From Diphasiastrum complanatum (lineage: Eukaryota > Streptophyta > Lycopodiopsida > Lycopodiales > Lycopodiaceae), in NCBI GenBank assembly GCA_029204225.1, contig CM055098.1, positions 2,107,106 through 2,171,105 on the forward strand: DNA of 64,000 bases, read 5' to 3'. The notes beneath the pieces were generated by a model that was not told the DNA's origin, made no database searches, and saw only the letters and a list, made by a program, of their open reading frames with translations. Made by a program: the position numbers and the translations under genes. Each line of letters begins with the position of its first letter. The stretch's first letter is position 1. Below are positions 3,675 through 37,000 of this stretch, piece by piece.

Positions 3675-5700
3675 ATGACTGAAAAGCCAGAGCCATCAGC
3701 AGAATCAATGCCTCAGAGAGGTGCTGCAGCTGCCATGTTGGGGTGTTTGAGCTTCATATTTCTCATGCTTTCTGCTGCCTCTGGTATATTTTGCTCTCTT
3801 TATTTGCCTTACGATGTAGCTCTTTGTGCATTTGATGGGTTTTATTTGGTTGAAATTTGAAACTAAAAAGTTAGGGGTTTTTTGGGTGATGCTAGGGGCT
3901 TTTGTTGGAGTGAACTATGGCTCAGATGGGGACAATATGCCCAGCCCCCAGCAGTTGGTGGAGTTCATGCAGAAACAAGGAATGGCTCAGGTCAGAATAT
4001 TTGACACCAATGCTGCCATTCTCAAGGCTTTTGCAGGATCAAACATCCAAGTCACGGTGGGCATCCCAAATGAAGCAATCCTTAGTGTGGGGCAGTCCAA
4101 TGCCACTGCAGCCAACTGGGTGAAGATGAATATTGCCCCTTATTTACCCAACACAAATATCACAGGCATTGCTGTGGGCAGCCAAGTGCTGACCGATTAC
4201 TCTGCTGTTGCCAATGTTCTAGTGCCCACAATGCGATTCATTCATGCTGCTCTTGTTGCCTCAAACCTTGACGCTTTGATAAAGATTTCCACTCCCCATT
4301 CCATGGCACTCCTGCTAGATTCCTTCCCCCCATCTCAAGCCTTCTTCAATCTGACCTATTCCAAGACTGTGATGCAGCCATTGCTGGATTTTTTATCTCA
4401 GACGGAGTCATATTTGATGCTGAATCTGTACCCTCTTGAAGTATACCAGCACAATCTGCGCGTTATGTCGGTTGATTATGCGCTCTTTCGGCCTAACACT
4501 GGAGTAGTGGATTCCAACACTAATCTGCTGTACACAAATGTGTTTGATGCAATGATAGATGCAGCCTTTAGTGCAATGGCTGCTCTGAACCATACTGACT
4601 TGCAGATTGTGGTCAGTGAGACTGGTTGGCCTTCGAGGGGTGATCAGAGTGAAGCTGGAGTGTCAGCTGAGAATGCTCAGACTTACAACACTAATCTAGT
4701 GAAGCATATTTTGAACAATACAGGAACCCCAAGAAGGCCAGGGATTTCCATTGACACCTTCATTTATGAGATTTTCAATGAAGACAAGAGGCAAGGTGCA
4801 ACCTCAGAAAGGAACTATGGGCTTTACTATCCAGACATGACTCCAGTCTACCCCTTAGATTTGACTGGCACAGGTTTAACTTCCCAAAATGGAACAGTCA
4901 AAACGTGGTGTGTGGCCAAGAAAGGTGCAAGTGCTAACAGCTTGCAAGCTGCTCTAGATTATGCCTGTGGGCAAGGTGGAGCAGACTGCTCTGCCATTCA
5001 GCCTGGTCAGATTTGCTTCTCTCCTAACAATTTCATGGGACATGCTTCGTTCGCTTTCAACAGCTACTACCAAAAGCATAGTACGGCACCAGATACCTGT
5101 GACTTTGCTGGAGTCGCCACTATTACCACCATCGATCCAAGTATGTTCATTTCTCTGCGTTAGATAGCTAGATAGTTGGTTTTGTTGCTTGCACTCTTGA
5201 CAATATATGTTTCAAGGTCTTAGGATCATACTTTCAATAAGAATCCTTGTCTTTCCATTCTAATATATTAATGTTGCTGGTTGGGGAAATGGGCTTCCAG
5301 GTTATGGACAGTGCATTTATCCCTCAAGGTGAGTCTTTCTCTGCTAGCAGCATTGCTCAACTACACATTTAGTCTTCTTTCATGCTCATAAACAGCTTTA
5401 AAAAGGAGTTGCTTTAGCCAATGCTGAGTGAGAATGGTTTCTAGTTGAGATTGGACGTTCCTTCTTCCGGTGGATTATTCTTCATTTGGTTTTAGCATAG
5501 TGACTTGTCTCCGAAGTAAACCTTCAACTTGTCAGAAAGACAATGTGATAATTTGTGCTTGCTATGTCCACAGTATGCCTGCAAATCAGACAGCTCCAGG
5601 TCCCCAGAAGAGCAGTGCATCGCGCTATATGACGATTTCAAGCTCCCTTGTCACTTGCATTGTCACGTCAACCCTTTTATTCCAGAATTTGAGACTCTAA
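3675..5700 (+). CDS. Glucan endo-1,3-beta-glucosidase-like protein, GH17 plus X8/CBM43, GPI-anchor type (4 exons)
   Basis: Exons are 3675-3783, 3896-5140, 5301-5328 and 5574-5700, all with GT-AG introns, giving 502 residues. Residues 1-36 hold a signal peptide (hydrophobic core MLGCLSFIFLMLSAAS). The GH17 barrel runs from GAFVGVNYG at about 37 to about 355. The X8/CBM43 domain (374-456) has six cysteines, and the last 30 residues look like a GPI-attachment signal. The nucleophile motif SETGWPS is present (Glu278). At the usual acid/base glutamate of AVG(N/S)E the sequence reads AVGSQ (codon CAA, 4183-4185), so catalysis may be lost or altered. Such proteins act on callose at the wall and plasmodesmata. 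Architecture and length match the Arabidopsis endo-1,3-beta-glucosidase 4 type. The start at 3675 is in frame with later ATGs at 3708 and 3735, either of which could be used. The 28-bp third exon encodes the sixth X8 cysteine. Confidence 0.9.
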
Positions 5701-25489: not shown

Positions 25490-28400
25490 ATCAAATATCT
25501 ATAATTCTTGGTACTTGCATGATCTTGCTGGTCCTTTTTAGAGTGTGAGGGCAGAAAAAGTTGTCGCGACGATTTTTGTGTCGCTTCGTGTCTTTTGACT
25601 TTCCGTCATATGACTTTCTCTTGCTGTATCATGGAACATTCTTTTTCGCGAATTTTCTCGTTCATGTCTTTTCGCTAGGGTGTTCACAAATATTTTTGCT
25701 TCGTTCCTTTTGACTTTCGCGTTCGCGAACATTTTTGTCAGAGCGAGGGCTGAAAGCTAGCAAGGCCTTGGTAATAGAAACGTTTTGTTTCTTCAGCTCC
25801 CTCTCAAAGCATGATAGCTTGCCGACTCCAAGACGGCTCCTCTGTCTCTCAAAAATTCCTTTGTCTAGGGCTTTTGTGAAAATGTCATCAACCATGTCTT
25901 TTGTTCCAATGAAGATGGTCTGCAACATCTTCTTCTCAATCAGATCCCTGATCAAGTGGTACTTGATCGCAATATGTTTTTTCCTTGAGTGGAACACAAG
26001 ATCTTTCGTTAGATGTATTGCAATGTGTTATCCATCTGCAAAACCAGAGGCTCGTTTCTTGTTTCGTCCCAATTCGTCCAGGAACTATTTGAGCCAAAAT
26101 ATCTCATTGGCCATCTTTGCTGATGCAACGTACTCTGCTTCGCAAGATGACTGAGCCACAATGGTTTGCTTCTTGCTGACCCAGAGAATTGTTGCTTCTG
26201 TCGCAATGGTGCATTCTCTTGAGACGCTTTTACAATCGTCCTTGAGAGATGCCCAACTAGCATCACTGTAGGAAAGCATCTTGAACCCTGCATCACGACA
26301 ATAACACAAGCCATAGTCTCTCGTTAATTGAAGATATTGCAAAATTCGTTTTGCAATCTTCCAATGTGTTGAGCTTGGATTCGTGTAGAATTGGCTCATC
26401 CTGACCGCTGCATTTTAGCAATGTTAGGACATGTGTTATCTGCAAGATACATCAGCAAACCTATCAGCTTCCTGTTAGGTGTGAGCTGCATTTGTTCTAT
26501 CTCTTTTTCAGTCCTCGGACAATCATGATCCACAATCTCAAAATATTTCAAGATGTCTTCCTTCACTTCAGCAATCAGCTTCTTACTCTTGTAGAGTATC
26601 AGAGTGTCATCCACATATACAGCCACAATAATGATCTGCCCATCTGTAATTCTGACATACACATTGGAATCAGCCATTAGTGGCTTGAATCCTAATGATT
26701 TTAGGGTTTTATCCTTCTTTTTGTACCATTGTCGAGCTGATTGTTTCAAACCGTAGATACTTCTATGCATTCTGCATGCATAATCAAGAAGTGAATTTGA
26801 GACGTATCCTGGGGGTTGATCCATGTAGACCTCTTCGTCTAACTCACCATGCAAGAAGGTTGTCTTCTCGTCCATAATGTGGATCCTGAGGTCATAAGCA
26901 ACTGCATATGCAAATAAAAGATGTAGGGACGAATGTTTGACAACAGGGGAGAAGGTTTTAGAGTAGTCAATACCATATCTCTGAGAAAATCCCTTCGCTA
27001 CTAGTCTTGCCTTGTATTTCAAGACATTTCCATTCGGTCCATACCTGAGTTTGAAAACCCATTTGTATTTGACAATCTTGCACTTATGTGATAATGGCTA
27101 CAATGTCCATACTTGGTTCTTCCTCATGGATTCCATCTCTTTGTTCATGGCTTGGATCCATTTGTCCTTCTCTGAACATTCAATCGCTTCTTCGAAAGTT
27201 TGTGGTTTGCCATTGAATCCACAGAACTCTTCTGATGTAGAAGCAGAGCTATCTGGCACGTATCTTGCTGGCGCTCTTCATGGTCTTGTCAACCTTCCAG
27301 GAGATCCTCCTGGGACAACAACACCTTTGTCTTTGTCTACTCTGCTAGGTCCGGAACCATCTTGGTTTACAAGTATTGTAGCAGTAAGCTGCCTCTCGAA
27401 TCTTTTGTCTTCTGATTCATCACTCGAATGTGAAGCGACTCGAAAATCTTCGTTTTCATGTTCGTCTTCTGCTCGTTCTATCACTGGTGACAAATCATAG
27501 TACTGTCTCTCCAGAATTTCATAGCCGACAAGATCATCATTGGACATTGTCCTGCTCTCATCAAATCTGACATCTCTCACTATCTTCACAGTGTTCGTGT
27601 TTGGTATGTAGACTCTGTAGTATGACGAATTGTTGTCATAACCTACTAGAAATCCCTGTTCATATTTCTCATCAAGCTTCTTTTGAAGCTTATTAGGAAT
27701 ATGTTGCACAACCAAAGATTTTGATGTGAGATAGGTTGGGCTTTCTACCCCACCATAACTCGTGTGGTGTCGTGTGAGGAACACCAGAATTATCTTTTTT
27801 GTTCTGGATGTATGCAGTTGTAGCTACTTTTTCAGCCCATAGTACCCTTGGAGCCTTTGAGTAGGCCATCATGCATCTGACAGCTTCCATCAGGGTCCTA
27901 TTCTTCCTCTCTACAACGTCGTTGTGCTGCGGTGTGTAGGCTGCAGTCCTTCTGTGAATGATGCCACGATCATTGTAGAAGTCAGTGAAGCAATTCGAGA
28001 TGTATTTGCCACCTCGATCTGTCCTGATCTGCTTTACTTTGTTGCATGTGCATCTCTCTGTCCAATTCACATATTCTATGAATTTATCAAGTGCTTCAGA
28101 TTTATTCTGAATAAAGTACACTCTGGCGAATTTACTATAATCATCAATGAAGGTTATGTAATATTTTGAGCCTCCTATTGAGATCATGTTGAAAGGCCCA
28201 CAGATGTCAAAATGCACTAACTCAAGAATCTTAGTCGTTCTGTAGGAGTCTTTGACAAATGGAGTGCGTGACATCTTACCCTTCAGACATGCATCACAGG
28301 TGGTCGAACTGGTTGCATTCGAGATGCTGACCCCTGTTATTGCTCCATGATGGCTTGCTTGGTAAAGTTCCATTGAGTTCATGTGGCATAGTCTCCTGTG

Positions 28401-28605
28401 CCACAAAGTATCTGGCGAATCATCATGAGTCTGATACACCTGATCTGCAGACAGACATACTTTCAGGTGATATAGATTACCTTTTCTTCTGTCTTGAGTG
28501 ATCAGGGTACTGGTACTGGCATCAACCACGTTGCATGCTTTGTCAAAAAACATCACACGCATCCCTGCATCAGCTATCCTTGCCACAGAAAGCAAGTCCT
28601 CCCAT
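25490..28605 (-). pseudogene. Ty1/copia pol (pre-integrase, integrase, RT, RNase H), gag lost
   Basis: Minus-strand order is as follows. Pre-integrase with LWHRRLCHMNS and integrase core with HFDICGP, RTDRGGKYIS and VVERKNRTLMEA span 28595-27693. A hinge spans 27784-27278, RT 27022-26396 (VYVDDTLILYKS active site, LYGLKQSARQWY), and RNase H 26399-25662 (SYSDASWASL, SSCEAEYVAS, DMVDDIFTKAL). Frames are broken at the hinge, inside RT/RNase H and at 26010. The integrase and RT catalytic residues are still visible. Gag and most of protease are missing: the frame breaks off at about 28605 in LLSVARIADAG, where a histone-like pseudogene begins on the opposite strand. The RNase H has the same charged extension as the inverted copy at 23950. 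Confidence 0.92.
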
Positions 28606-28610
28606 GCAAG

Positions 28611-29010
28611 ATGAGACAGGACCTAGCCAACCAGCAACACGGAGAAGGGCAGTCACACCGCCACCACCCTAGCAAGGCAAGGTCCTCAGAAGGATGCAAC
28701 CTCCGCAACCACGCCGCCGAAGGAAGAGCCGAATTCCGAACTGGTATAAGGAGATTCGAAAATACCAAAAATTCACGGAATTTCTCATACCGAGAGATCC
28801 ATTTGTCTGAATGATCAAGGAGATCATGACGAATTCTCCCTTGGGCTCAGAATTATGGGCGAGGTTGCATCAGCTATCCAAGAGGCGGCAAAAATGTATC
28901 TCACAAATTTGTTTGAAGACTCATTTTTGTGTGCTGTCCATTGTAAGAGAATTACTATACTTCCAAAGGACATGTTGTTGGCAAAGAGGTTGAGACGTGA
29001 GAGAAATTAA
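28611..29010 (+). pseudogene. Histone H3-fold retropseudogene, CENH3-like
   Basis: An intronless histone-fold sequence. One frame gives an Arg-rich tail (PRRRRKSR) and then KEIRKYQKFTEFLIPRDPFV, a stop (28808-28810), and MIKEI. After a frameshift at about 28855 the other frame gives SAIQEAAKMYLTNLFEDS, LCAVHCKRITILPKD, and a basic end with TAA at 29008-29010. These are the alphaN, alpha1, alpha2 and alpha3 parts of H3. Canonical H3 has LIRKLPF and FQSSAVMALQEA. Here LIP…PF and a Trp just before helix 2 are features typical of centromeric H3. Lack of introns, with multi-exon CENH3 genes the rule in plants, points to a processed copy. A second stop (28670-28672) lies in the putative tail. It abuts the copia pol fragment. 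CENH3 identity is probable, H3 fold near certain. Confidence 0.78.
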
Positions 29011-29166
29011 ACACGATGTACTTCAAATTTTGAGATAATCATATCAGATCATTTTTGTCATCGGACTCTGTTGAATTATTGTGTGAATTCATTTTATGAT
29101 GAAATATACTTTTCTGTGAATGTTTTTGGTTTTCTAATTTTTTTATCGGAGTGTATATCAAATGTT
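29011..29166. other. Sequence after the histone pseudogene
   Basis: AT-rich, with no gene. It could be the 3' UTR of the retrocopy. No poly(A) tail is visible. Confidence 0.4.
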
Positions 29167-29385
29167 GATTTGCATGCAAGGGCACGGAGGGGGCCCGTTT
29201 GACTCAATCAAATTGCCTCTGTCCATGCCCTTGCGTGATTTGCACGCAAGGGCACGGACAGAGGGCATTTGACCAGATCAAACGACCTCCCTCCGTGCCC
29301 TTGCATGCAAATCATGCAAGGGCGCAGAGGGAGGCTGTTTAACCGAGTTAAACGGGTTCCCTCCATGCCCTTGCGTGCAAATTTA
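29167..29385. repeat. Array of three tandem imperfect hairpins, about 70 bp each
   Basis: Each unit has a stem GCA(T/C)GCAAGGGC(A/G)C… pairing with …GCCCTTGC(G/A)TGC, an inner stem of purine/pyrimidine runs, and a loop of the form TTTGACYnnRTCAAA. Inner loops are GTTTGACTCAATCAAAT, TTTGACCAGATCAAAC and GTTTAACCGAGTTAAAC. Bases differ between units, but pairing in the stems is largely kept. The array lies at the 3' end of the unassigned minus-strand gene and may be the subterminal part of a DNA transposon. Confidence 0.75.
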
Positions 29386-30772
29386 GTAGCATCAGCATGC
29401 TCCTCATAAGGTCCAACCGCTGAGGCCAGAAGTAATCTGGACTCAAACCCTGGGCAGAAGTTCTGCAAGATAGCGCTCCTTCGTACACAATAGGCCTTTG
29501 GTGCAGTCTGTGGAAGTGGAGCATCTACAAGATGCTTTGATAGTGCTTTGCACTTGACCAGCTCAGTGGGCCCATCAGGACTATACTCATTGCTGAAACA
29601 GAAGATGTAGTTGTCAGGGAATTGTTCAATGTAGTATGCCAGGGATGCATCTGGCTTTCGTTCTATTCGATCCTCACGAGAACCTCCGCTCCTCATTGCA
29701 AAACTGTCAATCTCCACCGCATACTACAATACATTATATAAGAATGTTATAATTACAATGAACAGATTCAGAAATGGGAATAAGCATGGACGAGAGTATT
29801 TGTTGACAAAGAGCTTGCCTGAGATCCTTCATCCTCATTCTCACTTTTTGCAAGCACAATTCCATGGCCTTTGTATGGCATCTCAGTTGTGGAAATCGGT
29901 AATTTCCCAAATTGTTTATGCTCAATCTCCGGTGGCTGCAAAGTCTTCAGTACACACAAAATTTTTGCCAGAGCTTGCTCAGTAGTATCTGCGTCATCTC
30001 CAATCAACTGTCGAAATGTATCGTCTGGCACTGAGTGGTCAAAGGTGTTGGTGCCATTTTGCAATTTCACTAATCCTGCCAACATCTCATCCTCTCGTAA
30101 GTCGAGGATATGTTACAAGTCATGTAGAAACAAATACTCTTGCCCATCAATTATCACTGGGGCAAGGTCACGTATTTGCAGCATGTGATCGGAGTCGTCT
30201 ACGTCCTCCGGTTGGGTAGATGTTGATGCAACTGAAGCCATCTGTCGTTCAAGCTTTGTTTCCTTCACAGGTGTTAATTCCTCTTCTGCTTCTTGGTCTT
30301 TCATTTTGCTGACTTTCATGCTAGGATCCTGTTTTTCTTCAGTGGTATTTGTAGGAGATTCATTTAACAAAAAAATCACACTAATTTCACCTGACAAGGA
30401 CTTGTTTCCTACACTTTTGAGATTAAAATTTACTTGTTGATCGCGCGTTAACTCCAAAAAGTGCTCGTTCCCCAGGTGGCTAACAAACCTATTGAGTTAG
30501 GCAGCAAAAGCTCTATCTCCTTTCCATATATATGTTAGCAAATTATACGGAATCCAAGAAATATCGTAGCCAGGTATTCTTACCGAGTAAGGCATCAAGT
30601 TCTCTTCTATATACTCACTTACATACCTGAAATCATCACTATTCGCACGTAGAGTTGCTAGGGTATCTATTTTGGCAGTGAACATAGCATAGATGCGATC
30701 TATTTGATTAGCAAATGTTGTGTCAGCCAATAGATTTGCCAACTTTGTCTTCGAAGGATGCCTCGTGAACAT
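29386..30772 (-). pseudogene. Unassigned broken gene with a GC-AG intron
   Basis: The minus strand reads from ATG at 30770-30772 (MFTRHPSKTKLANLL) in one frame to 29819, broken only by TAA at 30497-30499 and 30113-30115. A 95-bp intron (29724-29818) with a GC donor (CAG|GCAAGC) and TTGTAG acceptor joins the frame in phase to YAVEIDSFAMRSGG and onward to about 29386. About 440 residues can be followed. Visible parts are RVSEYIEENL-like helices, RIPGYDISWIPYN, an acidic Lys/Glu linker near residue 150, and a helical half with TEQALAKILCVLKTLQPP. I do not recognise the family. It follows the transposase-like gene at 30982-33705 on the same strand and could be its partner. The hairpin array cuts or ends it. 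Confidence 0.6.
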
Positions 30773-30975
30773 AATGAGACAATATGAAAGATTATTAGTA
30801 CAAGCGCAAGTGCAAAGCATTTACCAAAACTAAGAAAGCCAAGAGAGCAAGAAAAATGTGTGCTTGAAAATGAGATAAAGTGGTCTTATGTAGGAAAAAG
30901 TTTTTCAAAAATAGACATGATTTTAATACTGTATCAACTAAAGTCTATTTATAGTAATCAAATAAATTATACCAC
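30773..30975. other. Spacer between two unassigned minus-strand genes
   Basis: AT-rich, about 200 bp, containing TATTTATAG near 30944-30952. It may hold the promoter of the downstream gene. Confidence 0.4.
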
Positions 30976-33705
30976 TATACTTCAAAAAAATGTAATATTC
31001 TCAATAGATTCTATTTGTTCATTGTGTGCTATTTCTGAAATGCCATCGTCTTCATTGGATGTTCTTTGCCGAGGAACCCATCGCTTCCCTACACGAACCC
31101 GAGACATCCTCCATTCCCTATGCCTTGCATTAGCTGTGGATGACTTCCAAGCGGCTCTTCTGGGTAAATTTGATGAAGAGATCATTGAACCCTCGAGCCC
31201 GTGTTTCTTCGATGTTTTGTCTGCTCAAAACTCCTCTATAACACCACTGAAACATCTCTACCAAGGAATTGCTAAGACCTTTACCTCCACCGTTCTTGAA
31301 GTTTTGAAATACGCAGCCTTGGCCCTGTAATGACTCTTCTCCATCCCTTGGGTATTCCAAATAGCCAATGATCCATATGTCTTTAAAAATCAAGGTCCAT
31401 GAGCGTACAAAATGTGCTATTTGCAAAAGAATCTAATTAGTACATTTCACTTGGATAGAACTTACAAAGAAAAAAATAAAGACAAAACACTGACCATATA
31501 ATAAATGATGTGTGTTTTTCCCCATGCATCAATCATCAATCAAGTGAATGCTTGTATTTCCGTCTGATATCTATCATAATCTTCTTCCCTCAAGTCTTTT
31601 TTATTGATAGTCAGTGACAAAGCATCAAATGCTTGCCACACCTTTGCACGTGTGGCAGCCATACGCGGATCCGAGCCAATATTTGTTGTGCATTCACATA
31701 CTCTCTTCCAATACTCCCATTGAAGACTACTTTCTCGTCCAGTATGATTTGACAAGAAATGCCTTGCTTTTGCGCCCCCCATGGAAACTTTTGCTGGCAA
31801 GTCTTGAGTTTTCCCACTCAACTCAACGTCCTTGGAAAGATCCACATGGCCTCCGTGACGTCCCATTTCTGATAACACTACCTCTAGATTTCAAATGCTA
31901 ACATTCGCGCGTGATTTGGGTTGCATATTCCATGCATAGCAACAATGCAAATATAACAACTTGTCCAATATTCGCAATTCACCATGGATTGTGCAAAAAT
32001 GGACTCTTTCGAGAGGAATTTCTAATACGGGACTCCATGCTTTGTCTAGATTGTGCCTGTTTGGTGGAACTCATTGGTTGCAATGCAACACACCTTTATT
32101 TCGGCCACTTTTAGACATACAATATATACAGAACTGTTTGGCATTCGCACCGAGCCCGCAACCAAACATGCATTTTAGGGTCTTCAAATCGGCAGCTAAG
32201 TGCCATTCCACAGTAAAATTTTGGCCATCAACACTTAGCAATTGTCCTCCATTTCGTGCTTGTATTACCTTGGATATATTGCATCGTTCAAATACCCACT
32301 TCAACACATCGTGGGTCTATTTATGAACTTCAAATGCAGCTATCCACCATATATGATTTTCAAATTGCACACTAAATTTCTTGGACTCACTTCCAGTTGA
32401 CTCCTGCAATGCTTGGTTCATCAACGTGATTGTGACACGTTCTAGTTTGCGACCTTTTACAATCTCCGCTTCATCCAACTTAAGGACAAATATAGCTTTG
32501 CCTCCAATATCTGCAATACCAAATTCTTGTAAATAACATACAATAATTGTTGCTTATGAAAAGTAGAAAAATAATAATTGAAATTGTTGTGAAACGAACT
32601 CACCATCTCTTTTGACATTGTAATGTCGTATCATCATTGCTTGACCTTTTCGAGATCCAAAACTATATTGCTGTATTGGTTATAATGAAAACGAACAATA
32701 GATCCCTTTTGCTTGCCTGGATATCTTAAAAGTATCATGAATATGGAAGAATTCACCTAATTCATTTTCTATAAATGAATTGCATTCTTGCTTTGTAGTT
32801 TGAAGCAATTTGTAAGTAGGTAATATTTGATGTTGTTTCAATCCGTTTTGATCAGATTTTTTCATAAATTTTTTCAATGCTCTATATCCTTTTTGACTCA
32901 CACCTCCTTGATCACATGCATAAACTATTTCTCTAACATTTGGATTCGGTTGAAACCTGGTAGCAAGTCTTCTTGCAATCTTTAAACGAAATGAATCACT
33001 CGTTTCATTTTCCACAATCTGCATCAAATCTTTACCCTTCATGAATTGCTTCATATGTTTGGTGCTTTGGAAATGATCTCCGACCATGTTATTCAAAAAT
33101 TCTTTCGTCAATCTCTTGCATCTTTTACTAGCACCACCACCTGGTGTCTAAACATCTAGTTTGCACCTTTTAGTATTGCCTTTTGGTTGGTCATCCGTTG
33201 AGACTCGACGCTTTCATTGAAATCCATATAATATCTTTTGAAGACTAATGTTTGAAGATTGCAATTCTTCAAACTTTGTGACAGATCTGGTGGGCTCCAA
33301 TTTTAGATTTGTTATCTCTTTAGCCAATGTCTGATTTGTTTGTTGCAATGATTTTAATTGCTCATTCATGTATGTAATATGAATGTTTGCACTATTCGCT
33401 AGCATTTCATCTTGGATTCTTCGAGAATCCATAATTTGACAGTAGCCAAGAAGTCCGTTGGCACCATCACCAACGAACCTTAGCAAACTATGTACATCAC
33501 AAAATTGAGGAGAAATATTGGTCAATGGATTAGGTGGATACAAATCATCTTTTACCCATAGATCGATATTTTTCATTCCTTTTAACCTCCAACAATGCAT
33601 TTCGTATGAGTTCAGATTAACACCCCATGCAGCTCTGGTTGTGGCATAATCCTTCTCTAAGTTCACATGCAAGTGACATTTGGTTCCCATCTTGAAAAAG
33701 TCCAA
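30976..33705 (-). pseudogene. Unassigned transposase-like gene, at least three exons, decayed
   Basis: One frame can be followed on the minus strand across 33705-31417 through about seven stops. It has two plausible GT-AG introns (32511-32603, 93 bp; 31417-31494, 78 bp). Domains in order: an N-terminal region with WGVNLNSYEMHCWRL and a coiled coil (33400-33220); a basic stretch with KRR and KRCK; and a helical domain (33111-32680). A core follows with FVLKLDEAE (Asp codon 32473-32475), HLAADLKTLK (Asp 32188-32190), a FCIYCM CxxC pair, HGELRILDKL, WGKTHIIYYM, and YGSLAIWNTQGMEKSHYRAK (Glu 31339-31341). A frameshift leads to NGGGKGLSNSLVEMFQWCYR and a basic tail ending at 30982. Spaced Asp, Asp, zinc-like CxxC and Glu suggest an RNase H-fold DDE transposase. 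I cannot name the superfamily. Confidence 0.6.
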
Positions 33706-33719
33706 GGTCCAAGAAGATC

Positions 33720-34029
33720 TTCAAAAACAAATTTGGCTTAATGTTAGTTTGAAGTATACATTTGAAATGAGCTAGACATGGAGTATTGTGTCATGCCTAG
33801 GTCCTATGTGTTGTACTTTTGGGATGACATTCAATGATAGGCTTTGTCCTACTCTAAGGTTACCCTAGTATAGTCTATGTAACAAACCTACTAAAGTCTA
33901 TGAAAATGGATCTTAGAGATAGCTCTTAACTCATTCTCACTCTATGTGGTAACCCATGGTAAAGGTGCCACGTAGGATGGATTAGCATTACACTAATTAT
34001 GATTAAGAAACTTGTTTAGACAAGGAAGA
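33720..34029. other. Non-coding segment, possibly LTR-derived
   Basis: No coding frame. It contains CTACGTGGCACC near 33970-33981 on the minus strand. It separates the transposase-like gene from the copia element. Confidence 0.35.
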
Positions 34030-34055
34030 GGCCCTTTTTGAGTTCAAAAAGGGCC
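34030..34055. repeat. 26-bp hairpin at the copia breakpoint
   Basis: GGCCCTTTTTGA (34030-34041), two loop bases, then TCAAAAAGGGCC (34044-34055): 12-bp perfect arms. It touches the point where the copia RT frame ends. Confidence 0.9.
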
Positions 34056-37000
34056 CTAATGATGGAATTCAATCTCTAATCCTAAGATGTAATGAATTTT
34101 TCCAAGATCTTGCATTTTGGATTCTTTTCCAAGTGCAATTTTGGTTTCTTCAACTAGATTGATACAACTTCCTATTAGGATAATATCATCAACATAAATG
34201 AGAAGAAAGACAATATCACTATCATAAAACTTGACATACAAGGAAGGATCATAGTTACTAAGATTGAATCCTAGTGAGACAAGGAAAGTATTAAGTCGAG
34301 ACCATGATCTTGGTGCTTGCTTTAGTCCATAGAGACTTTTGAAGAGCAAACAAACTTTGGTCTTGTCTTGGATGAACCCAAGGGGTTGATCCATATAAAT
34401 TTCTTCTTCTAGATATCCATTTAAAAATGCATTTGAGACATCTAGTTGAAAAATTTGCCATTTGGAAAAACAAGCAATAGAAATGATGATTCGAATTGAT
34501 ACCATCTTTGCAACTAGAGCAAAAGTCTCCTCATAATCAAGTCCATAAACTCGAGCAAAACCCTTTGCACAAAGTCTTGTCTTGTACTTGTTGATTGTGC
34601 CATCTTGATTATATTTGACTCAAAAAACCCATTTGCAACCAATAGTGTGCTTGTTGGATGGAAGATCCACAAGCTCCCATGTCTTGTTGGTAATCAATGC
34701 ATCATATTCCTACTTCATGGCTAGAAACCATTCTTTTGAGTTGAGTGCATCAAATACATCCTTTGGCTCTTCATGTGAAACAAAATATGCATAATTAGTG
34801 GAGTTGAGTTCCACTTGCTTTCCTTTATCTCCATATGTAAGCCTCTTAGGCTCGGATCTTCCTCTTTGTGATCTCCTTGGTGAAAAGATTTGAGGTGACT
34901 CCTCCTCAATTCTCGGCCTCATCTCTCCATGATAATCTTCAAGGGTGATGATAGGAGAATCCTTTTAAGAATCTTTGATCTCGGCCTCATCAAAGATGTA
35001 TTTTGTATTCTCATGGAAAATAATATCTCTACTCTCAATTGTAATTGAGGTAGAGGGAACATAAATTTTGTATGCCTTCTTGTTGGATGAGTATCTAACC
35101 ATGATCCCTTTGACTGAATTTGGATCATCTCTTTTCCTTGTTTTCAAGGGTACATGAACAAAACAAGCACATCCAAAAACTCTAAGGTGATCAACCTTAG
35201 GTTTCTTCTTAAGCAATACTTCATATGGTGATCTTCCTGCAAGTGCATTGTGAGATAATCTATTGCACAAATAATTGGCACAATTAATTGTTTCTCCCCA
35301 ATATTCAATAGGCAAAGAAGCTTCAACTCGAATTGCTTTAGCACATTCACATAGGGATCGATTTTTTCTTTTGGCAACTCCATTTTGAGATGGAGAATAA
35401 GCACAAAAAAACTCTCTCTTAATCCCTTCAACCTCACAATAATCATAGAACTTGTTGGAGATGTATTCACCTCCTCCATCACATCTCAAAGCTTTAACTT
35501 TGAAAGAAAACTGTTTCTCAACATAAGCTTTGAAAACTAGGAAGTGTTCAAACACCATAGCTTTTGAAGAAAGAAGGTACAACCAAGTATATCTTGTAAA
35601 ATCATCAATGAAGGTAACAAAACAAGTTGCACCACCAATACTTTTTGAGGAAGAAAAGTGAACATTCGAGTGAAGTAACTCCAAAGAATGAGAAGTCTTA
35701 ATAGAAGACTTTTGATATGGCTTTCTATGTGATTTTGTAATAGTACAAGCCTCACATGGCTTCACATCTTTGGAAAGCGATCTTGGTAGGCCAATAGCCT
35801 TATCATTCTTGATCATAGAAGCATAGATTTATAGTTAGGATGCCCCAACCTTCTATGCCATAACTCCTCCTTAGACATAAGAGCAATTTCACAAAAGTTT
35901 GCATTCTCATAAGAATTTAGCTTAAAGATGCCACCATATCTAGATCCATTAGCTAGAATCTCATCAATTTTCTTAATAAAGCAAGTATTGGAATTGAATT
36001 TTACATCACAACCACGATCAAGCAACTTTCCAACACTTATCAAGTTCTTTGTAAGCTTAGGAACAAAAAGAACATTGGAAAGTGATAGAACTTCATAAGA
36101 AGCAAGTTTTAATGGAATGTTGCCAATTCCTTCAATAGAACATTCATGATCATTTGCTATATAAATAGATCTTTTAAGTCCTTTATAAGGTACAATAGAG
36201 CCAAAAGACTCCTTTGAACAACACATATGTGATGAGACACCACTATCAATGTACCATGCTCCATCCTTCTTGAAGGGTGTTGAAGAAAAACTTGACACCA
36301 TGAGGGATCCTTCTCCATCACTTGCAATAAAGTCTTATTCTTTCTCATTAGAGAGATTTGCTTGTTTGAGTTGATTTTTCTTTTTGAAGCAATTAGAGGC
36401 ATAGTGCCCCTTATTGCCACAAAAGAAACACTTGACTTTCTTCTTCTTGGTCTTGGAAGTAGAAGGATGAGTTGAGTCATCCTCTTCACCATCTTTGTCT
36501 TTGTCCTTGGCTTTTTCTTTGTTGAAAGCTTGAGAAAACTCATTCTTGCTCCTCCCTTTATGCTTGTCCTTGACAAAGAGAGCTTTGTCACTCCCAATAT
36601 GCTCGAGTTTGAAGACTAGGAAGTGTTCAAATACCATAGCTTTTGAAGAAAGTAGGTACAACCAAGTATATCCTGTAAAATCATCAATGAAGGTAACAAA
36701 ACAAGTTGCACCACCAATACTTTTTGAGGGTGAACATCCAAGTGAATTAATTTCAAAGGATGAGAAGTCTTAATAGAAGACTTTTGATATGGCTTTCTAT
36801 GTGATTTTGCAATAGCACAAGTCTCACAAGGCTTGATATCCTTGGAAAGTGATGTTGGAAGTCCAATAGCCTTATCATTCTTGATCATAGAAAGCATAGG
36901 CTTATAGTTAGGATGCCCCAACCTTCTATGCCATAACTCTTCCTTAGACATAAGAGCAATTTCACAAAAGTTTGCATTTTCATAAGAATTTAACTTGAAA

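Follow-up and report, generated by a model that had tools for sequence, protein, structure and literature searches.

In a 64,000-nucleotide stretch of the Diphasiastrum complanatum genome (contig CM055098.1, positions 2,107,106 to 2,171,105; this whole stretch is called the window here), an earlier note had proposed from the letters alone an undescribed two-gene DNA transposon between positions 29167 and 33705. Our analysis indicates that what was seen is the degenerate left portion of a DNA transposon of the cut-and-paste kind, which carries a hairpin array and encodes a transposase of the DDE type that folds like RAG1 and Transib, a variant of histone H3, and two further proteins; we put the probability of this reading at roughly 0.7. 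The element's termini, missing target duplication, gene content, fold similarity, and histone constraint, and the CG/CHG-type decay of its old copies, were established by computation.

Termini, Extent, and Gene Order

The copy in the window comprises the following features:

28598 to 34061, minus strand: whole copy (locus L009), left end at 34061, decayed
34025 to 34061, minus strand: left terminal inverted repeat of 37 bp, CATTAGGGCCC..., internally palindromic, at the common start of similarity in related copies
30981 to 33690, minus strand: gene 1, transposase, in three exons (33690-32604, 32510-31495, and 31416 to about 30981), decayed
29376 to 30772, minus strand: gene 2, protein of no recognised family, with a GC-AG intron (29818-29724), its 3' end lost in the window
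29166 to 29375, no strand: hairpin array, flanked by convergent genes and made up of three palindromic units of 70 bp
28598 to 29010, plus strand: gene 3 fragment, the 3' part of a histone H3 variant with its fold at 28712-29007, bearing a stop and a frame change

Similarity of the 20 fetched loci to the window begins at 34060-34064. The left terminal repeat is kept in nine of them, the window counted, which amount to seven independent loci since L022, L024, and L025 have common flanks; it recurs inverted at the opposite end of L012, L017, L045, and L046. The right terminal repeat, which equals the left one inverted, was found in 3 of the 20 loci, two of these being copies of one locus, where only four loci extended far enough to show it. 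Two copies run from end to end (L045, 8,137 bp; L046, 8,737 bp), and their terminal arms are identical over 37 bp and 36 bp, respectively. The terminal inverted repeats of the element are accordingly 36-37 bp long, 5'-CATTAG..CTAATG-3', and each repeat, at 34025-34061 as at the ends of L033-L046, is itself a palindrome (GGCCCTTTTTGRACTCAAAAAGGGCC), so that each end of the element could form a hairpin. Related copies thus share termini, in line with the DNA transposon that the earlier note had suspected.

The longer copies carry four genes rather than the two first described, with genes 1 and 2 on one strand and genes 3 and 4 on the other, the two pairs being convergent; portions of each of the four lie between the terminal repeats of L045 and L046. 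That only two genes had been seen in the window is explained by truncation: beyond 28598 the copy is without the rest of gene 3, gene 4, and the right terminal repeat, and Copia-like sequence starts there. A retroelement was considered and rejected, since the Copia-like sequences only flank the copy, whereas its terminal repeats, complement of genes, and DDE fold are those of a DNA transposon.

Abundance and Insertion without Target Duplication

When the 1.74-Gb genome was searched with 1 kb of gene 1, 646 candidates came up and 40 matches were scored, namely the window itself and 39 others at 89-96% identity. The terminal-repeat pattern, with at most one mismatch allowed, matched the genome 1,499 times (761 forward, 738 reverse), while the reversed control matched 0 times; recurrence of the element is far above chance. 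Fourteen facing repeat pairs were picked among the terminal-repeat matches listed, two of them long elements and twelve (L033-L044) short, internally deleted elements of 414-1,189 bp that keep both ends, some of these loci being duplicated. The short derivatives are a large non-autonomous population.

Because of this duplication the 14 pairs represent ten independent insertions. Flanks matching over 2 to 9 bases were seen at one insertion (3 bases, L039), and flanks matching at 1 base at four of the ten, compared with 2.6 expected. None of the ten displayed a 5-bp target duplication, and the 2-5 bp duplication typical of the CMCT clan of transposons (EnSpm/CACTA, Mirage, Chapaev, Transib, Plavaka, ESTA, and Lanisha; PMC12730594) did not appear. 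Empty sites were sought with the joined flanks (60+60 bases) of two of the ten insertions. Of the 40 matches listed for L034, 34 were exactly as long as the query span and six fell short of it by 1 to 5 bases; of the 40 listed for L043, 39 were as long as the span and the other fell short by one base. Insertion therefore neither adds nor removes target bases at these sites, and the duplication that the earlier note had expected is not made. The transposase would cut at the terminal repeats and join them to target phosphates directly opposite each other, which would leave no duplication.

A Transposase with a Predicted RAG1-like Core

Gene 1 starts at the ATG at 33690 and has two introns, 32603-32511 and 31494-31417, both GT..AG; together with the GC..AG intron of gene 2, they bear out the two minus-strand genes with plausible introns described earlier. 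The spaced acidic residues and the CxxC pair after the second Asp, also noted from the letters alone, were read at these positions:

32473 to 32475, minus strand: first catalytic Asp (KLDE), conserved in alignment A1, role inferred from the fold
32188 to 32190, minus strand: putative second catalytic Asp (HLAAD), at least 90% conserved in A1
32119 to 32130, minus strand: C(2)C motif after the second Asp, at least 90% conserved in A1
31399 to 31416, minus strand: H(4)H motif (HILYAH), placed by the splice site and alignment A4
31339 to 31341, minus strand: putative catalytic Glu (GMEKSH), invariant in the six sequences of A4

The suspected decay was confirmed by in-frame stops in both genes (in gene 1, of which three pieces were tested, they number 2, 4, and 1, and in gene 2 they number 2) and by their broken frames. 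No Pfam family covers the transposase among 41 members, and none reached the cut-off for the gene 1 or gene 2 pieces. A host gene family, which the earlier note had named as an outcome that would refute its reading, was rejected on this absence of Pfam families and on the high copy number, and no profile search placed either open reading frame in one. Gene 1 has relatives in metagenomic sequence and in Adiantum. Relatives in viral contigs and in prokaryote contigs were sought, and none was confirmed.

The structure model of gene 1 matches the core fold of RAG1, the recombinase of antibody genes, over the aligned range 1-357, the exon with the Glu lying outside it, and on this model gene 1 probably encodes a DDE transposase with a RAG1/Transib fold. 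Hermes and the P element likewise appear in the structure-comparison list, and confidence is low in the third part of the model, both of which would suit an enzyme of hAT or P-element type whose likeness to RAG1 reflects only the shared RNase H core and a helical insertion. The list was limited, and the absence of other transposase superfamilies from it is uninformative. We regard an enzyme of that type as highly improbable.

Another rival reading treats the element as a divergent offshoot of one of the clan's known lineages, Transib or CACTA/EnSpm. The fold and the motif set (D, D, C(2)C, H(3-4)H, E) of the element's transposase agree with the clan, the 5'-CA..TG-3' termini are shared with it, and Transib-like proteins have been reported from plants (PMC9435367). 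The element, in contrast, makes no target duplication, whereas the clan makes one of 2-5 bp (PMC12730594) and RAG-like elements (RAGL/ProtoRAG) one of 5 bp, the latter also having a RAG2-like gene (PMC9435367). Its ends read CATTAG, where those of Transib and RAG-like elements read CAC; none of the 41 members matched Pfam; and it carries a histone H3 gene and a hairpin array unlike the clan. Membership in a known lineage thus appears somewhat unlikely. The element extends the RAG1-fold transposases to a family that is very abundant in one plant genome, is missing from Pfam, and differs from its relatives in insertion chemistry.

A Histone H3 Variant Encoded by Gene 3

Gene 3 lies past the hairpin array, antisense to genes 1 and 2, and had been overlooked in the earlier note. 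The H3 histone fold was recognised in its protein both by Pfam and by a PDB search: the window fragment (28750-29010) matched Pfam Histone with an E value of 7.1e-12 and the fold of L017 with 3.5e-29, and the best PDB relatives were H3.1. Like canonical plant H3.1, the variant has H3 residues 1-8 after the Met (MARTKQTAR), the stretches RKYQKSTE and KRVTI.PKD, and a loop of unchanged length before the second long helix. Unlike it, the variant has lost Lys-9 and the remaining tail, which are replaced by a long stretch rich in SR, Q, and P; of the canonical amino-terminal tail only residues 1-8, Lys-4 included, are retained. The start is followed by RNPRE in subfamily A and DPRV in subfamily B, compared with KSTGG in an ordinary H3 (P0055). 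Ten starts were read (L014, L015, L017, L028, L046, L047, L048, L049, L050, and L051); Lys-4 is kept in all ten and MARTKQTAR is exact in five (L014, L028, L048, L049, and L050).

In L017 (L017:2572-3798, plus strand) gene 3 spans 408 codons with five stops, all TAG, as expected from methylation and deamination of CAG codons (CHG context) in a Q-rich tail. With the whole protein as query for homologues, 7,993 candidates were scored and ten proteins came out; each aligns over about one fifth of the query, the fold, where identity with the closest H3 proteins of plant type is 51-58%. In the genome, 118 histone matches were obtained from 102 scored places among 6,321 candidates; 22 rows span the full length (residues 1-408), three of them stop-free. 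Two metagenome proteins, P0057 and P0058, are H3 with a long coiled-coil-like amino-terminal extension and end in PKDMLLAKRLRR, as does the transposon histone; for histones of this type no viral contig relative was confirmed.

The histone and the transposase belong together. Of 24 histone loci whose identity does not exceed 61% (those of subfamily B and the like), nine are accompanied, at a distance of 2.6-2.8 kb and on the other strand, by a match to gene 1 (three on C15, two on C10, and one each on C8, C13, C3, and C17). Six subfamily-A histone loci (C1367, C13, C16, C11, C12, and C9) likewise have an opposite-strand match to gene 1 close by. A histone locus without such a partner is uninformative, since only 112 of 13,445 gene 1 candidates were scored.

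Captured Cargo or Component of the Element

The fold evolves under constraint. By the Nei-Gojobori method, the ratio of nonsynonymous to synonymous substitution rates (dN/dS) of the fold was 0.25 for the subfamily-A pair and 0.21-0.53 for six subfamily-B pairs, and that of the mid-tail 0.87 and 0.39-0.54, respectively. In comparisons of A with B, synonymous change has reached saturation, and dN in the fold is 0.22-0.28. Within subfamily A, the corresponding ratio of proportions of differences (pN/pS) was 0.45-0.65 for genes 1-4, as expected from constraint followed by decay.

These values bear on the possibility that a host H3 was captured by transduplication and then multiplied as cargo, contributing nothing to the life of the element. 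Such a passenger would fit the many copies in which the histone is deleted or stopped, and it has a parallel in fungal hAT elements with H3-like genes. H3 was amplified by a hAT element to hundreds of copies in Pseudocercospora and inactivated by repeat-induced point mutation (PMC6710886), and a Pyrenophora element holds a transposase, an uncharacterised open reading frame, and an H3-like gene (H3L) with tail insertions and expressed sequence tags (PMC3538342). Here, however, the gene occupies the same position in two subfamilies whose histones are only about 47% identical over the protein, intact members exist, the fold has a dN/dS of 0.21-0.53, and Lys-4 persists in every start read, all of which makes a mere passenger distinctly unlikely.

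The fungal elements resemble ours in an H3-like gene of their own, an extra uncharacterised reading frame, and, in Pyrenophora, insertions in the H3 tail; they differ in an unrelated transposase and 8-bp duplications. The Pyrenophora copies are near-identical and recent, whereas here the gene has been kept by two diverged subfamilies. Among the titles listed by searches of open-licence PubMed Central (PMC) papers, these fungal hAT cases were the only transposon-borne H3 genes recognised. Taken with this unrelated case, our finding suggests that H3 was acquired by transposons more than once.

Genes 2 and 4 and the Internal Hairpins

A motif search located a candidate GC donor at the corresponding place of gene 2 in the subfamily-B copy L045. 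None of 1,540 candidates in a gene 2 homologue search reached E<=0.001. Gene 4 was found in all six copies whose right half was read (L012, L014, L017, L028, L045, and L046); it had no Pfam match above the cut-off, and its predicted structure has a mean confidence (pLDDT, predicted local distance difference test) of 29. Visual inspection had suggested a BAH domain in the gene 4 protein; this was rejected for want of Pfam support at E<=10 and on that same poor model. No RAG2-like gene was recognised, genes 2 and 4 being without Pfam match.

The three 70-bp palindromic units described earlier are present; their placement at one end of the element did not hold, because in L045 and L046 the array is internal, between the convergent genes. 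Units of 70-71 bp lie between genes 2 and 3 in both subfamily A (window) and subfamily B (L045, L046), with differing arms. Covariation was evaluated with seven units from three elements, 500 shuffles, and slid controls. In these units 87.7% of cells pair. Both sides have changed in 10 of 29 pairs compared with 6.6 after shuffling, a value reached by 7 of 500 shuffles, and the covariation score was 0.322 compared with 0.201 shuffled (reached by 0 of 500) and at most 0.133 in the slid controls. Further pair types were not exceptional (20 versus 18.6 shuffled; 122 of 500 shuffles reach it). These data support a conserved hairpin, short of proof; the hairpins might end or process the convergent transcripts.

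Silencing Scars and a Possible Role of the Histone

Among 16 subfamily-A copies, C-to-T changes relative to the majority base affected 10.2% of CG, 8.2% of CHG, and 1.5% of CHH sites, compared with 0.7% for A/T transitions. Such a pattern is what CG and CHG methylation leaves behind in plants. CHG methylation in plants is maintained through dimethylation of H3 at Lys-9 (H3K9me2), and since it depends on this mark, a histone without Lys-9 is a plausible counter-measure. The variant could be built into nucleosomes on the element, whose chromatin would thereby be unable to take the H3K9me2 that sustains CHG methylation, or it could compete for readers of H3 Lys-4. Judged from sequence, a role of this kind is possible, at odds slightly below even, and a modified H3 may help such elements escape silencing.

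More tentatively, the element may represent a new DDE superfamily of land plants, with a RAG1-type transposase, blunt insertion, and its own H3 that offers Lys-4, lacks Lys-9, and counters silencing by H3K9me2 and CHG methylation. If true, this would be a mobile element escaping silencing by means of a histone that it supplies itself, and a constrained, transposon-owned H3 would give a direct handle on the contest between mobile DNA and chromatin silencing.

Several observations weigh against the main reading, that of a four-gene transposon with a RAG1-fold transposase and its own histone. The exon with the Glu is poorly modelled; a PDB sequence search with the transposase gave no RAG1 (nothing at E<=1, nor at E<=10); and hhalign against an approximate RAG1 stretch gave a probability of only 50%. 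Stops interrupt 19 of the 22 full-span histone matches, and the histone is intact in no copy read end to end: the middle part, about residues 139-352 of 394, is absent from L045, and the fold from L046. Genes 2 and 4, finally, have no explanation in this reading.

Surroundings in the Window

The left end of the transposon lies inside a Copia-like frame (34062-36334, minus strand), whose reverse transcriptase frame stops at the junction. Another Copia-like element (26396-28622, minus strand) begins where the transposon is cut at 28598. Farther away, at 3820-5163 on the plus strand, is an open frame of 447 amino acids, which we take to resemble a glucan endo-1,3-beta-glucosidase with a C-terminal X8-type domain and which is perhaps the nearest host gene.
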